Source of the DNA: a virus
Reading direction: 5' to 3' (one strand)
Virus record (IMG/VR): IMGVR_UViG_3300027777_000171
Span: 1-22,217 of that record
Length of the DNA: 22,217 nt
The stretch's first letter is position 1. Each line of letters opens with the position of its first letter. Shown one piece after another: positions 865 to 14,153 of the stretch. Under the pieces are notes generated by a model, which ran no database searches, had not been told where the DNA came from, and saw only the letters and a program-made list of their open reading frames with translations. The position numbers and the translations under genes are program-made.

Positions 865-2972
865 ACTACAAACCCAGAAAATGGTCTAAGATATTACATA
901 ACTCAACCAATAGATGGAATGTTATCGTAGCTCATAGAAGGGCTGGTAAGACTGTAGCAAGCATAAATCATCTTATTAGGGAGGCTATGAGAGTTCCTAA
1001 GAGTGATTACGCTTATATTGCTCCTACTTATAAACAGGCTAAGGCAGTGGTGTGGAATAAGATTTTAAAGGAGTATAGTAGACCAATTCCTCATTGTAAG
1101 ATAAATGAGGCTGAACTCTACATCCAATATCCAAATGGAAGTCGTATTACTCTTTATGGTGCTGATAATCCTGATAGTTTGCGAGGGATTGGGTTATGGG
1201 GAGTGGTCTTTGATGAATATTCTCAGCAACCATCAAATATATTTTCAGAAGTTGTTTCGAAATGTCTGGCTGAACATAATGGATTCGCAATTTGGATTGG
1301 AACACCTAAAGGAAAGAATGAGTTTTACAAAACATATCATAATGGATTGAAACAAGATAATTGGACAGTTATTTATCAACCAGTAACAAAAACTATAGAG
1401 GGAGAGGAAGATATAGACAAATATGTCACCAATATCAAGTTGGCGTATGAAGATGACCTAGAATTGGTTAAACAGGGTCGTATGACGCTAGATGAGGTTG
1501 AACAGGAGTGGAATTGTTCTTTCGTGGTAAGTGCCAGTGGTTCTTATTATGGGGACATTATTTCTCAGGCTAGAACAGAGAATCGATTTACAAATGTTCC
1601 TTGGATAAAACATCTTCCTGTGATGACTTGGTGGGATTTAGGAATGAGCGACAGTACTTCGATTATCTTTTTTCAGAAAGTAAACCAGGAATGGCATGTA
1701 ATTGATGCGTACGATAACGAAGGAGAGGGTCTACAACACTATATAGACGTTCTTCAGAAGAAAGGATACATCTATGGGTCTCACTGGGCTCCACACGATA
1801 TAGCGGTCAGAGAATTGGGCACAGGACTATCTAGGATTGAGATGGCTGCAAGTATGGGTCTAAAATTCAACATCGTACCTAAGAAGTTGAGTGACCAAGA
1901 TAGAATTAACGCTCTCAGAAGCAGATTTAACACTTTATGGTTCGATATAGATAAATGTGATAAATTATTAGATGCTCTGGCTAGTTATCATAAAGTTTGG
2001 GATGAAAAACGTGGAGAATGGAAAAATAAACCAGAACACGATTGGAGTTGCTTTGTTGGAGAAACAAATATATTGACACATAACGGAATGTATCAGATAA
2101 TGGAGTTAGATAATCATAAAATATTAACTCCAAACGGATGGAAAAAAATGAAACCACTTGGCAAGACAGGCATAAATGCCCAACTTGTGGAAGTCACATT
2201 CAACGACAATACACAAGTAAAATGTACGCCGGAACATTTGTTCTTAACGGAGAAAGGGTGGAAATCAGCAGAGTTCCTAGAAAAGGATTTGCTAATCCAA
2301 TCCTCCTTGACTCTAACACGCAGTATTTTGATGGTGGGATATACCGCATTTGGCCTAATGAAAAGTATTTTACAAGAGGTAGCAGAAAGTTGCACAGAGA
2401 GGTTTGGAAGGATGCATTTGGAGAAATTCCAAAAGGATGCCACATACACCACAAAAATATTGATGTTACGGACAATAATATTGAAAATTTGGAGTGCATT
2501 GATGCACACAAGCACTTATCAGACAACTGGAAGCGAAGAAATTCAGAAAAGAAAGTCCATTTTTCAGATAATGCAAGAAAAAAAGCAGCAGAGTGGCATG
2601 CTTCACCAGAAGGAGTGTTGTGGCACAAAAGACATGCAGAAAATTCTAAGAGTTGGACTAAATGGAAATACGAAGAAAAAGAATGTGAATGGTGTCAGAA
2701 AAAGTTTAAAGGGCTTGTTAGACGCAATGGTCACGCTCAAAAATACTGTCACCCAAATTGTAGAGCCGCTGCGTATAGAAAAAATAAGAAAGATTCAAGA
2801 GAGAGCTGATGTTTATGACATAAATGTTCCAGTAGAGCACTGCTTCTCATTATCAAATGGTGCTGTAGTTCACAATTCTCACTATGCTGATGCGATGAAT
2901 TATTGGGCAGTTACTCCAGAATTTGTAAATAGTAAACCAATGTCTTATTCTTATAAGGCAGAAAGATTCTAA
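846..2972 (+). CDS. terL: Terminase large subunit, intein-containing precursor
   Basis: This is the ATP-driven DNA-packaging motor and headful or site-specific nuclease. The N-terminal ATPase has a Walker A-type loop AHRRAGKT (residues 29-36), a Walker B strand ending in Asp-Glu (GVVFDEY, 119-125) and a coupling motif around WIGTPKG. The C-terminal RNase H-like nuclease shows a first aspartate in TWWDLGMSD, a second in WAPHD, and a third in SHYADAMNYW. An intein (2049-2876) separates EHDWS from SHYADAM. Removing it leaves about 432 residues (401 + 31), the usual terminase size. The open frame can be read from a TTG at 840, but ATG 846 is preferred. The gene overlaps the phosphatase-like gene. 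Correct splicing is needed because the third nuclease aspartate lies beyond the intein. Confidence 0.93.
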   Translation: MPEVQINYKPRKWSKILHNSTNRWNVIVAHRRAGKTVASINHLIREAMRVPKSDYAYIAPTYKQAKAVVWNKILKEYSRPIPHCKINEAELYIQYPNGSRITLYGADNPDSLRGIGLWGVVFDEYSQQPSNIFSEVVSKCLAEHNGFAIWIGTPKGKNEFYKTYHNGLKQDNWTVIYQPVTKTIEGEEDIDKYVTNIKLAYEDDLELVKQGRMTLDEVEQEWNCSFVVSASGSYYGDIISQARTENRFTNVPWIKHLPVMTWWDLGMSDSTSIIFFQKVNQEWHVIDAYDNEGEGLQHYIDVLQKKGYIYGSHWAPHDIAVRELGTGLSRIEMAASMGLKFNIVPKKLSDQDRINALRSRFNTLWFDIDKCDKLLDALASYHKVWDEKRGEWKNKPEHDWSCFVGETNILTHNGMYQIMELDNHKILTPNGWKKMKPLGKTGINAQLVEVTFNDNTQVKCTPEHLFLTEKGWKSAEFLEKDLLIQSSLTLTRSILMVGYTAFGLMKSILQEVAESCTERFGRMHLEKFQKDATYTTKILMLRTIILKIWSALMHTSTYQTTGSEEIQKRKSIFQIMQEKKQQSGMLHQKECCGTKDMQKILRVGLNGNTKKKNVNGVRKSLKGLLDAMVTLKNTVTQIVEPLRIEKIRKIQERADVYDINVPVEHCFSLSNGAVVHNSHYADAMNYWAVTPEFVNSKPMSYSYKAERF
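2138..2809 (+). CDS. HNH homing endonuclease nested out of frame in the intein
   Basis: The open frame of up to 223 codons runs entirely inside the intein, in the -1 (+2) frame relative to the terminase. It encodes a typical phage HNH nuclease: LHREVW (His86), then GEIPKGCHIHHKN (His104/His105) and NNIENLE (Asn114, Asn117). A zinc finger follows, with Cys183/Cys186 and Cys204/Cys208 before Arg-rich residues. The protein would nick or cut DNA and spread the intein. Three starts are possible: ATG 2138; ATG 2222 (195 residues), whose A-rich leader resembles other starts here; and GTG 2258 (183 residues), with GGAG five bases upstream. The first 40-50 residues overlap intein block B and are probably not part of the nuclease. 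Alternatives are ribosomal frameshifting into and out of this frame, or two compensating sequence errors. Confidence 0.85.
   Translation: MEKNETTWQDRHKCPTCGSHIQRQYTSKMYAGTFVLNGERVEISRVPRKGFANPILLDSNTQYFDGGIYRIWPNEKYFTRGSRKLHREVWKDAFGEIPKGCHIHHKNIDVTDNNIENLECIDAHKHLSDNWKRRNSEKKVHFSDNARKKAAEWHASPEGVLWHKRHAENSKSWTKWKYEEKECEWCQKKFKGLVRRNGHAQKYCHPNCRAAAYRKNKKDSRES
2249..2252 (+). promoter_or_regulatory. Possible ribosome-binding site for the nested HNH gene
   Basis: GGAG lies five bases before an in-frame GTG at 2258 that would start the HNH protein just upstream of its nuclease domain. Most genes in this window lack such a sequence, so its weight depends on whether the host uses Shine-Dalgarno pairing. 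It may also be coincidental, because the bases also encode part of intein block B in the other frame. Confidence 0.35.
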
Positions 2973-9391: not shown

Positions 9392-9676
9392 ATGGCTATC
9401 AACTATAACAAAATTCAAAAACCATCTACTCCTGATTATGAAGGAACAAATAGAATTGGGTGGAATCTATTGATTAACGCAGTTGATTTTTTACTGATAA
9501 ATCCATTAGATAGGCTTGTAACTACATTTAATGTAGATGATATATGGACATATATAGATGAAAGACTTGGACTTACCACTGAAGATGAATATATAATCCT
9601 AACTGAAGATGGCATACCGCTTTCTGCCACAGGAATGGATAATGTAAATTGGCACTTAATAACAAAACCTGAATGA
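9392..9676 (+). CDS. Small hypothetical protein upstream of the collagen-like fibre
   Basis: This 94-residue protein begins MAINYNKIQKPSTPDYEGTNR and is acidic in its second half. It starts one base after the adaptor stop, and its stop overlaps the start of the fibre gene by four bases (ATGA), so the two are likely translationally coupled. Tail or fibre assembly function is inferred only from this placement. Confidence 0.6.
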   Translation: MAINYNKIQKPSTPDYEGTNRIGWNLLINAVDFLLINPLDRLVTTFNVDDIWTYIDERLGLTTEDEYIILTEDGIPLSATGMDNVNWHLITKPE

Positions 9677-11643
9677 GCAAATACATTAAAATAAGTGAAT
9701 TACCAGTAGATTCAAACGTATTAGATACAGATTATACGATTGTTTATGATGTGGCTGGTGGAGCTACTAAAAGAGCTACTAAGGCTGATTTTAAAGGTGA
9801 TGTTGGAAGTCAAGGTCCTCAAGGATTTCAAGGTCCACAAGGATACCAAGGTTACCAAGGCAACCAAGGTAACCAAGGATTCCAGTCAAGTGTTCAGGGA
9901 CCTCAAGGTTTCCAAGGCTCACAAGGCAACCAAGGTAACCAGGGCAATCAGGGTAATCAATCCTCCGTTGCTGGTCCTCAGGGATTTCAGGGTAATCAAG
10001 GTTTTCAAGGAAATCAATCTTCTGTAGCAGGTCCGCAAGGTTATCAGGGTAACCAGGGTAACCAGGGATTTCAGGGTGTTCAAGGTAACCAAGGTACTCA
10101 AGGCAACCAAGGTAACCAAGGAGTGCAAGGTACTCAGGGTAACCAAGGAATACAAGGAAATCAAGGTTTTCAAGGTAGTCAAGGCTTCCAAGGAGTCCAA
10201 GGCAATCAAGGGAATCAGGGAAACCAGGGCTTCCAAGGCTTTCAGGGATTCCAAGGCAACCAATCTTCAATTCAAGGTCCGCAGGGTTATCAAGGAATAA
10301 ATGGAACAGGAACTGGTGATTTTATGTCAAATGGTTCAGTACCAATGACAGGAACTCTTCAAGCTGTCGCCTCTGACTCTTCTAAAGCTTCAATTCATGT
10401 TGCACAAGGAACAAAACCAACCACTACGACTGATGGTGATATTTGGTTTGATGCGAATGGAATGTATATCCAGAATCTTTCTGCTATTCATCAACTTGAC
10501 GCTGACGCAAATGCTGTTGGAGCTTTAAGCACAACTACGATTACTGACAATGGGAATGGGACTGTCAATGCTTCTTCAATAGATGTCTTTATTTACGCTC
10601 TAGCAGGTTGGCAGGGAAACTATATGAGAAGAACAGTTCCTGCTGCTACAAATCTTACTCTTACTGATGGAGTGGCAAACTTTCTGACTGTAAACTACAA
10701 TGCTGGAGTCCCAATCTTTGCAGTAACCACAACTGCTTCTAGCATAAACAGTTCTAATGTTCTTCTAATCGCAACAATGTGGAGAGAGGGAACTAGGATT
10801 CATTTCCAAACTGTAAACTGGGGGCTTGCTACCGCAACTCGTCTTAACGACCGCTTAATCAATGTTCAAAGATATGTAAGAACATCTGGCTTGATACTTG
10901 GTGAATCAACTGGAAATGTTATTACTCTTACTTCAGGATTAGCTTGGTATGGAATTAAAGCTTATGCCGAATCAGCAATGACATCCGCTGCTTCTAATTG
11001 CACATTCTATTATAAGAGTGCTGGAGTATGGACAAAAACTGATGTATCTACTTACAACAATACTCAATATGACGATGGCACAAATCTTCAAACACTTTCA
11101 AACAACAGATATACGGTAAACTGGGTTTATCGCTTCGTAAATGGAGATGCTGCACCTAAACTTGCGTATCATCTTGGTGCTGGAGATTATACCTCGGTAG
11201 CCTCAGCTGCTGGTGCCGCAGAACCTACTCCTCCTCCAGTTCTTCTTCAAATGGCTATTTTGGTTGGTCGTATCATTGTTAAAAAAAGTGCCGCAACTGC
11301 TTCTGAAATTGACAGTGCTTTCACGACAGTGTTCGCTGGAAGTGCAATTACTGACCATAATTCACTTGCAAATCTACAAGGAGGAACTTCTGGACAGTAT
11401 TATCACCTTACTTCTGCACAAGCTACCGTAGTTTCAAATACATCGGGAACAAATAGTGGAGACCAAGACCTGTCTGGGCTACTTCCAAAAGCAGGAGGAA
11501 CAATGACAGGCACACTTACATTGAGGACAGGCTCAGCTACAGCAGGGACAGAACCACTATTACTTGTAGCAGGACCAGTAAATACAGTTCCAGTAGCAGG
11601 AGCAGTAGAGTTTGATGGAACTGACTTGTATATTAGCTTTTAA
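9673..11643 (+). CDS. Tail fibre with Gly-X-Gln collagen-like repeats
   Basis: This 656-residue fibre starts with a short attachment-type module (YIKISELPVDSNVLDTDYTIVYDV). It then has about 55 Gly-X-Gln triplets between residues 45 and 212, interrupted by SSVQ/SSVA or SSIQ blocks. A collagen-like triple helix is expected; Gln in nearly every third position is distinctive. The remaining 440 residues are beta-rich and end with fibre phrases GTNSGDQDLSGLLPKAGGTMTGTLTL and GAVEFDGTDLYISF, common in phage fibres. It likely reaches out from the tail or head to bind the host surface. Repeats at DNA level vary synonymously in both Gly and Gln codons, suggesting age or selection against slippage. Confidence 0.88.
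   Translation: MSKYIKISELPVDSNVLDTDYTIVYDVAGGATKRATKADFKGDVGSQGPQGFQGPQGYQGYQGNQGNQGFQSSVQGPQGFQGSQGNQGNQGNQGNQSSVAGPQGFQGNQGFQGNQSSVAGPQGYQGNQGNQGFQGVQGNQGTQGNQGNQGVQGTQGNQGIQGNQGFQGSQGFQGVQGNQGNQGNQGFQGFQGFQGNQSSIQGPQGYQGINGTGTGDFMSNGSVPMTGTLQAVASDSSKASIHVAQGTKPTTTTDGDIWFDANGMYIQNLSAIHQLDADANAVGALSTTTITDNGNGTVNASSIDVFIYALAGWQGNYMRRTVPAATNLTLTDGVANFLTVNYNAGVPIFAVTTTASSINSSNVLLIATMWREGTRIHFQTVNWGLATATRLNDRLINVQRYVRTSGLILGESTGNVITLTSGLAWYGIKAYAESAMTSAASNCTFYYKSAGVWTKTDVSTYNNTQYDDGTNLQTLSNNRYTVNWVYRFVNGDAAPKLAYHLGAGDYTSVASAAGAAEPTPPPVLLQMAILVGRIIVKKSAATASEIDSAFTTVFAGSAITDHNSLANLQGGTSGQYYHLTSAQATVVSNTSGTNSGDQDLSGLLPKAGGTMTGTLTLRTGSATAGTEPLLLVAGPVNTVPVAGAVEFDGTDLYISF
9808..10300 (+). repeat. Collagen-like coding repeat (Gly-X-Gln)
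   Basis: Nine-base coding units for Gly-X-Gln are repeated in tandem, with X mostly Asn, Phe, Tyr, Pro, Val or Thr. Three or four interruptions contain Ser-Ser. Length variation by recombination between units would change fibre length. The other-frame and reverse open frames here are shadows of this low-complexity sequence. Confidence 0.85.
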
Positions 11644-12863: not shown

Positions 12864-12907
12864 AACCTGTGCCTTCTGGTGCTTGCCTTTCTCACAGGTT
12901 GGGCAAG
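12864..12907 (+). promoter_or_regulatory. Alternative hairpins in the glycosyltransferase leader
   Basis: AACCTGTG (12864-12871) and CACAGGTT (12893-12900) form a perfect 8-bp stem. CTTGCC (12882-12887) and GGCAAG (12902-12907) form a second 6-bp stem that overlaps the first one's arm and loop, so the two exclude one another. The gene's preferred ATG is at 12927. Such a pair can act as an attenuator or translation switch. Chance pairing is possible. Confidence 0.45.
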
Positions 12908-12926
12908 TATCAGAGGGAAAAAAAAG

Positions 12927-14153
12927 ATGTTTTCAATCATTATTCCGTTTCATAAAAAGAATCAGTTTCTGGCAGAAGCAATCGCTTCAATCCGAGAGCA
13001 GACCCTCCAAGATTATGAAATCGTGCTAGTGCCTAACGGCGAAGTGCTAAAAGACTCCAAGTACCTTGAAAGTTTCAAAGGCGACAATATCCAAATGTAT
13101 CCTTGCATAGAAACTGGTAAAGTCGGTAAAGTCAAAAGTTTCGGGTTTAAGCAAGCTAAAGGCGATTACCTGGTAGAACTGGATTACGACGACCTGCTGA
13201 CTCCAGACTGCCTGGAAAAACTCCAGCTGGAAATAGACAAAGACCAACCTGACTTTCTCTTTTCAAATTTTTGCCAAGTCAACCTTGATGGTGAGCCAGA
13301 TAAGCTTTGGTCAAACTATTACGGCTGGGAATACCGAGATTACCTGTATAAAGGCAAACTGCTCAAAGAAACTCTCAGTCCTGAGTTTACCCCTCAAAAC
13401 ATTTCTCGCATCTGGTTTAACGCCAACCACATCAGGGTATGGAAAAAAACCTTTTACGCAGAGCTTGGCGGGCACGACGAAAGTATGACTATCAGCGATG
13501 ACCACGACCTTGTGCTACGAAGTTACCTTAAGGGAGTGTGTCGGCATATTGACGATTGTCTGTACATTTACCGAGTGCACGAACAAAACACCACTTGGCT
13601 ACTCAACGGCGAAATTCAAGAAACTATGTGGCTTACCTACGACCGATATATCTGGCAACTGATGGAAAAATGGGCAGACGACAACAAGCTGAGAAAGATT
13701 GACCTGGCTGGTGGCATTAACCCTAAACTTGGCTACGAGAATTATGACTTACGCAACGCTCAGATAATCGGAGATTTAGACGAAACCTGGAAACTTGAAG
13801 ATAACTCAGTTGGAATCCTAAGAGCGGATAACGCCATTGAACATTTCAAAGACCCCATTCATACCATGAACGAAGCGTATCGGGTCCTAAAGCATGGCGG
13901 AGCATTCATGATTCTGGTACCTTCTACCGACGGACAAGGAGCCTGGTGCGACCCAACTCACGTCAGTTTCTGGAATTTGCGAAGTTTCCGCTACTACACC
14001 GAAGCTAACATGCGACTTTACATCGAACCTAAGTGTCAAGCTAAGTTTCAAATAATGAAATGCGTAAACATTAACCTCTGGAGACTACCATTTTGCGAAG
14101 TGCACCTTATCGCAGTCAAAGATGGCAGATTCCACGGAGAATATAATTGGTAA
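12927..14153 (+). CDS. Glycosyltransferase family 2 - methyltransferase fusion
   Basis: This 408-residue two-domain enzyme reads from ATG 12927; a longer frame to a GTG at 12879 would run through the hairpins. Residues 2-220 are a GT-A transferase: FSIIIPFHKK, DYEIVLVPNG, the metal/nucleotide-sugar motif LDYDD (85-89) and ISDDHDL (189-195). Residues 255-400 look like a SAM-dependent methyltransferase: KIDLAGGINP (257-266, motif I), DNAIEHF (301-307) and EAYRVLKHGGAFMILVPS (316-333). It may add and methylate a sugar on phage structural proteins or a host surface glycan. Its GC content is about 45% in sampled stretches, against roughly 35% nearby, and its codons use more C and G, pointing to recent acquisition. 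Confidence 0.82.
   Translation: MFSIIIPFHKKNQFLAEAIASIREQTLQDYEIVLVPNGEVLKDSKYLESFKGDNIQMYPCIETGKVGKVKSFGFKQAKGDYLVELDYDDLLTPDCLEKLQLEIDKDQPDFLFSNFCQVNLDGEPDKLWSNYYGWEYRDYLYKGKLLKETLSPEFTPQNISRIWFNANHIRVWKKTFYAELGGHDESMTISDDHDLVLRSYLKGVCRHIDDCLYIYRVHEQNTTWLLNGEIQETMWLTYDRYIWQLMEKWADDNKLRKIDLAGGINPKLGYENYDLRNAQIIGDLDETWKLEDNSVGILRADNAIEHFKDPIHTMNEAYRVLKHGGAFMILVPSTDGQGAWCDPTHVSFWNLRSFRYYTEANMRLYIEPKCQAKFQIMKCVNINLWRLPFCEVHLIAVKDGRFHGEYNW

Follow-up and report, generated by a model that had tools for sequence, protein, structure and literature searches.

The large terminase gene (terL) of the viral DNA studied here is interrupted by an intein, and a gene for an HNH endonuclease lies nested in this intein in the -1 frame. 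The window, i.e., the whole stretch of DNA analysed, is a 22,217-base IMG/VR virus record with a G+C content of 36%. Judged from this sequence and its relatives, the insert is very probably a homing intein whose nuclease is translated separately from a nested, overlapping gene; splicing, translation of the HNH protein, its target and homing itself are all inferred. The nested HNH gene is no lone oddity. Sequence comparison places it in a widespread class of terminase inteins, in which the N-terminus of the nuclease also overlaps the splicing domain.

The TerL gene including the intein occupies positions 840-2972 on the plus strand (as do all terL, intein and HNH features described below) and may start at TTG 840 or at ATG 846. 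Its reading frame matches Terminase_6N and Intein_splicing (2.4e-13) in Pfam as well as a PHROG terminase, and possesses no stop codon across the intein. The N-extein extends to position 2048 and the C-extein covers 2877-2972. The intein between them (2049-2876, 276 codons) interrupts the TerL nuclease motif after HDWS and before SHYADA, as inferred from the ORF, Pfam and the empty sites of inteinless phages. Its Hint splicing domain consists of an N-terminal half (2049-2303; AlphaFold residues 1-85, TIGR01445) with C1 at 2049 and the block B motif TPEH, and a C-terminal half (2769-2876; residues 241-276) with the block F motif DVYDI and the terminal HN, which is followed by Ser at 2877. The middle of the intein frame (2304-2768) appears to be an open, unstructured linker without constraint at the amino acid level, as indicated by AlphaFold and codon-position variability. 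The earlier note, made from the window sequence alone, had described an unbroken terminase frame with these splicing blocks, and both its coordinates and its motifs were right (ORF, Pfam). The motifs of class 1 inteins are present: C1, T60, H63 and N276 are invariant (57/57), H275 is found in more than 90%, and the residue following the intein (+1) is C, S or T among the relatives. By its motifs and Hint fold, the insert is an intein of the class 1 type, with splicing being inferred.

In the AlphaFold model of the window intein, built with 57 aligned relatives, residues 1-85 have a pLDDT of mostly 84-98 and residues 241-276 of 95-97, and residues 91-236 are mostly below 50. The model thus predicts two confidently folded Hint halves and a disordered linker. 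The best solved match of this model in Foldseek was the gp41-1 intein (E 2.2e-6). Several other features of the window may be mentioned. Near the contig start (121-150) there are three runs of 7-8 C separated by TA or A, which is odd at 36% G+C. A small protein starting MKILTVCDHGNNRS (544-864) resembles the loop of low-molecular-weight phosphatases, without a match in Pfam. Collagen-like triplet repeats (9673-11643; Pfam Collagen 3.7e-21) mark a probable tail or fibre gene, and in the phage structural region a family 2 glycosyltransferase and a methyltransferase domain are combined in a single ORF (12879-14153).

The nested gene (2138-2809) encodes a protein of 223 amino acids. The HNH nuclease with a zinc finger that the earlier note had read in the -1 frame was recovered in Pfam as HNH_3 (1e-11), together with a C-terminal Cys4 zinc ribbon that scored under the curated cut-off (5e-4). 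The catalytic core (LHREVW...CHIHH...N...NLEC; residues 84-122) is encoded by 2387-2503, and the zinc ribbon (residues 182-215) by 2681-2782, a stretch overlapping the region just before the IntC half as well as its start. H105 and N117 of the HNH motif region are invariant, and H102, H104 and N113 are present in more than 90% of the relatives; the ribbon residues C183, C186, C204 and C208 are invariant in the HNH alignment. At the N-terminus there is a further CxxC motif (2177-2188), invariant in 70/70 loci, which is overprinted on the intein so that its codons lie across the intein codons N-A-Q-L-V. The Cys directly preceding HIHH is found in 81/84 HNH proteins with this CxxC compared to 8/43 without it, which suggests (without proving) that the two share one metal site. 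The N-terminal extension with CxxC is absent from relatives such as L010, L011, L012 and L014 and is therefore probably an addition made by overprinting, although this remains an inference. The predicted structure of the HNH protein has a mean pLDDT of 87.9; its best solved match is the homing HNH endonuclease I-HmuI, which is weak (E 0.16), and a sequence search of solved structures with the HNH protein gave only weak, probably unrelated matches.

The arrangement is conserved. IMG/VR relatives collected with HNH similarity as the sole criterion comprised 87 loci, representing 83 distinct contigs. The HNH gene is nested in all of them, with the N- and C-terminal halves of the intein in the +1 frame relative to HNH (83/83). 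The frame offset is thus kept in homologous terminase inteins, a check that the earlier note had proposed. The terminase frame across the HNH gene contains no stop in any of these contigs, and the third frame is usually stop-rich. The same offset and open frame can be found in Tetrasphaera phage TJE1, Rhodobacteraceae phage LS06-2018-MD07, Acinetobacter phage Highwayman and one faecal phage contig, as well as in 19 bacterial or archaeal genome contigs from several phyla, which look like proviruses. In three annotated carrier phages the entire region is labelled as terminase only. Relatives with the HNH in frame with the intein, which according to the earlier note would have refuted its reading, were sought and none was found; the offset is -1 in every contiguous locus. 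Note that an IMG/VR search with the whole terminase protein yielded no matches, the patterns being too specific. Note also that L098 and L125 carry damaged-looking nested elements (L098/L125: a stop in both frames near the HNH end; a frame break in the intein N half).

Divergence at the three codon positions of the intein frame was compared in pairs with 65-97% HNH identity. It amounts to.26/.18/.54 (positions 1/2/3) in the exteins and.20/.13/.59 in the part of IntC beyond the HNH stop, to.16/.20/.25 in the Hint-N/HNH overlap, and to.18/.51/.24 in the middle of the intein, where position 2 is the most variable. The HNH frame therefore holds the wobble bases of the intein in the overlap, and the HNH protein alone is held in the middle. 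Furthermore, at those four-fold wobble sites where the intein residue is unchanged (30 disjoint pairs), the difference is.29 in the Hint-N overlap vs.66 outside, with 28/30 pairs lower and 1 higher (p=3e-6). On this comparative evidence, both frames are constrained where HNH overlaps the splicing domain, and in the middle the intein frame is merely kept open, with constraint there only on HNH. The suggestion that both frames are selected, one for a linker in the splicing precursor and the other for a freestanding nuclease, is thereby supported by the conserved offset, the codon-position divergence and the start signals embedded in the intein.

The HNH gene of the window likely starts at an internal ATG (2138-2140), the nearest in-frame stop being 7 codons upstream. 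Among the relatives the HNH frame carries stops upstream, and an ATG is located 8-15 codons ahead of CxxC in 68/70 loci. In many loci the intein residues G-E-V-L-T are encoded as GGA GAG GTT..., which puts a GGAGAGG-type Shine-Dalgarno sequence (SD) 10 nt upstream of the ATG, and the Glu codon of GEVLT is GAG in 44/56 cases vs 31.8 expected from the same genes (P=3e-4). The window HNH gene has no SD, and the same is true for 20/20 other window genes checked. In view of the conserved ATG and SD, and as the missing SD is matched by the other genes of the window, internal initiation is the best inference for the production of HNH; translation itself is inferred. The absence of SD-like motifs upstream of all 20 start codons (0/20) is also an observation on the window as a whole, whose host probably does not rely on SD sequences.

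All inteins examined interrupt TerL, mostly at the motif HDW(S/A)SH-x-ADAxRY and in several adjacent phases. Across loci L002-L127, one intein family occurs at adjacent phases of this motif (after HDW, HDWS, HDWSSH or HDWSSHA). Inteinless relatives carry the joined motif, e.g. HDWSSHACDAMRY in Pelagibacter phage HTVC203P. The mean identity is 34% for the exteins (down to 17%), 62% for IntN and 55% for HNH, and HNH similarity is correlated more closely with that of IntN (r.71) than with that of the exteins (r.50). These values fit a joint spread of the intein with its HNH. The higher conservation of intein and HNH compared to the exteins suggests horizontal spread, but slower evolution could partly account for it. 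The signs of a homing role are only indirect (the mismatch between extein and intein similarity, the empty sites), and cleavage is inferred.

Besides the contiguous form, other architectures exist among the relatives. In L108, L110, L113, L120 and L122, the terminase frame stops after IntN, a homologous HNH gene comes next, and IntC with the terminase end is found in another ORF; by this gene order they are split inteins with the nuclease between the halves. In Vibrio phage 1.238.A (L139), the halves keep the +1 offset with stops between them, and the C-half is annotated separately as a hint protein. An unannotated HNH relative (2501-3130 of L139) is located there between the N-terminal part of TerL and the "hedgehog/hint domain protein". 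These six loci thus meet the definition of a fractured gene or split intein, whereas the window, with its contiguous ORF 840-2972, does not. In Brochothrix phage BL3 the terminase is split and HNH is reduced to a remnant; the intein appears to split TerL (L140, 1900-2700), and gp3 would consist of IntC and the final part of the terminase. Freestanding HNH relatives immediately follow terL in unrelated phages (L013, L015, L141-L144). Well-supported branches of the HNH tree imply at least 4 interchanges between nested and other forms; the architecture has therefore switched repeatedly, with the direction being unresolved. The earlier note had also regarded homologues with stops in the middle of the terminase frame as a refutation. 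Such homologues occur, but the majority of the inspected ones are split inteins, for which a stop in this region is irrelevant; the refutation tests set by the note thus turned out in favour of its reading.

An obvious worry with a single metagenomic contig is that an ordinary intein with its HNH in frame has acquired two compensating indels, by assembly error or as a recent pseudogene, which only simulate the nested gene. As the relatives keep the same offset, identical in 83/83 distinct contigs and in isolated phages and accompanied by dual constraint, this reading was rejected and has practically no probability left; the nested out-of-frame HNH is real and not an assembly error. Hardly more credible is the possibility that the HNH ORF is the sole real gene, the intein frame being open by chance and the terminase either restored by a group I intron or broken. 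For the window alone, chance is not easily dismissed, because the +1 frame of HNH is stop-poor: 1.8 stops are expected with synonymous shuffling (P(0)=0.08) and 3.6 with neutral synonymous codons (P(0)=0.0065), compared to 16 expected and 14 observed in the +2 frame. This natural scarcity of stops can also explain the constant phase of the offset. The open middle of the window is thus only weak evidence against chance, and the earlier claim that chance openness is unlikely was overstated for this sequence. It does hold for the family, where 72 lineages less than 70% identical have 0 stops in the intein frame vs 108 or 244 expected. This set was filtered on openness, but the 83 IMG/VR contigs were not and are all open, and the corresponding frame contains 3-11 stops in 14/15 relatives of the split or freestanding type. 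Judged from this conservation, the family-wide openness is far beyond chance, and the statement that a frame open by chance is impossible was accepted for the family and rejected for the single window sequence. Apart from the open frame in all lineages, the intact and conserved intein motifs and the Hint fold speak against a chance-open frame, and a group I intron was rejected, as there was no match in Rfam.

If the nested gene is real, its product could still be made or used in another way. Programmed -1 frameshifting from the terminase frame, instead of internal initiation, would agree with the offset of -1 in every case and with the A-rich GGAAAAAAATG at the start in the window and in L002. 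However, the A-run is missing elsewhere (e.g., in L006), HNH-frame stops near and upstream of the ATG leave only a short stretch for a shift, and ATG and SD are conserved at a fixed spacing in most loci; frameshifting was therefore rejected for lack of a conserved A-run and is improbable. Somewhat more weight, albeit still little, can be given to the idea that HNH is a packaging nuclease (a TerL partner like HK97 gp74) which happens to be nested in an intein and has no role in homing. Freestanding relatives are located directly after terL in PAE1, FBPa53, SN1, CL2 and EauM-23, others adjoin terL or terS, and HNH proteins are common beside terminases (Kala et al. 2014, as cited in PMC12613952). 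Against this, the HNH gene is located within a selfish element, the same TerL family has members without intein and HNH, HNH similarity follows the intein more than the terminase, phage BL3 retains the terminase though its HNH has decayed, and the best (albeit weak) fold match is a homing enzyme. A homing intein with a nested nuclease gene remains the preferred explanation.

In canonical HNH inteins (e.g., of the Ssp GyrB type), the nuclease forms a domain of the intein and is read in the same frame. They resemble the window in that intein and HNH nuclease form a mobile unit, but no case with HNH in frame was found in the window family. The ShiLan domain (Arsenault, Gosselin and Gogarten 2025, PMC11855218) is an HNH that was inserted out of frame into the methylase of a mycobacteriophage. 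As in the window family, this HNH gene encodes zinc fingers and lies in another frame of an insert through which the host gene is stop-free; its distribution suggests homing. However, the ShiLan insert lacks an intein splicing domain and is presumably tolerated by the host protein, whereas in the window family the host frame is a complete intein and HNH overlaps the splicing domain itself; in terms of Pfam, the window shares the offset and openness of the ShiLan type but not the absence of a splicing domain. Furthermore, the ShiLan HNH has a GTG start without a ribosome-binding site, whereas an embedded SD is frequent in the window family. In fractured genes the intein is split, and the nuclease is encoded by a free gene located between its two parts (Dassa et al. 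2009, NAR 37:2560; as cited in PMC3229294 and PMC10448857). The window family shares with them the free nuclease gene amid intein halves, includes truly split relatives, and has a predicted Hint fold closest to that of gp41-1. The window differs from fractured genes in that its intein is contiguous, one stretch of DNA encoding both intein and nuclease in two frames. Within the partial coverage of our literature search, no publication described an intein with an HNH gene in a second reading frame. Terminase inteins are listed by Kelley et al. 2016 (PMC5050341), where a term search revealed no mention of the arrangement. PMC11855218 cites Gosselin, Arsenault and Gogarten 2025 (bioRxiv 2025.01.02.630785) on the "non-canonical architecture" of actinobacteriophage inteins and Gorbalenya 1998, "Non-canonical inteins", for overlapping frames. 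Related cases may be described in both, and there is a real chance that the 2025 preprint has priority for nested inteins.

We propose that the endonuclease is not an intein domain but a nested -1 frame gene with its own start. Translation from the terminase start would yield a precursor of terminase and intein, in which the Hint halves would fold around the disordered linker and excise themselves, leaving intact terminase. On the same mRNA, initiation within the Hint coding region would produce HNH as a free nuclease. Its probable target is the HDW-SH-ADAxRY motif of inteinless terL, and repair of the cut would then copy the intein into this allele. In the middle, the only demand of selection on the host frame would be the absence of stops, and after an in-frame stop or an indel the intein could persist as a split intein with HNH between its halves. 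Whether nested out-of-frame homing inteins form a distinct and abundant class of mobile elements, with the Cys-ligand region at the nuclease N-terminus gained de novo by overprinting on the splicing domain, and bridge contiguous inteins and fractured (split) genes, is for us evenly balanced. As we read it, the nested arrangement represents a third design of homing inteins: splicing and nuclease functions are not fused, nor do they reside in separate genes, but are encoded in overlapping frames of one stretch of DNA. It also provides a concrete path by which contiguous inteins could become split ones with the nuclease located between the halves. Furthermore, it supplies a large natural dataset of long same-strand gene overlaps with start signals inside a protein-splicing motif, and the nuclease has probably been missed in many annotated terminases and metagenomic contigs.
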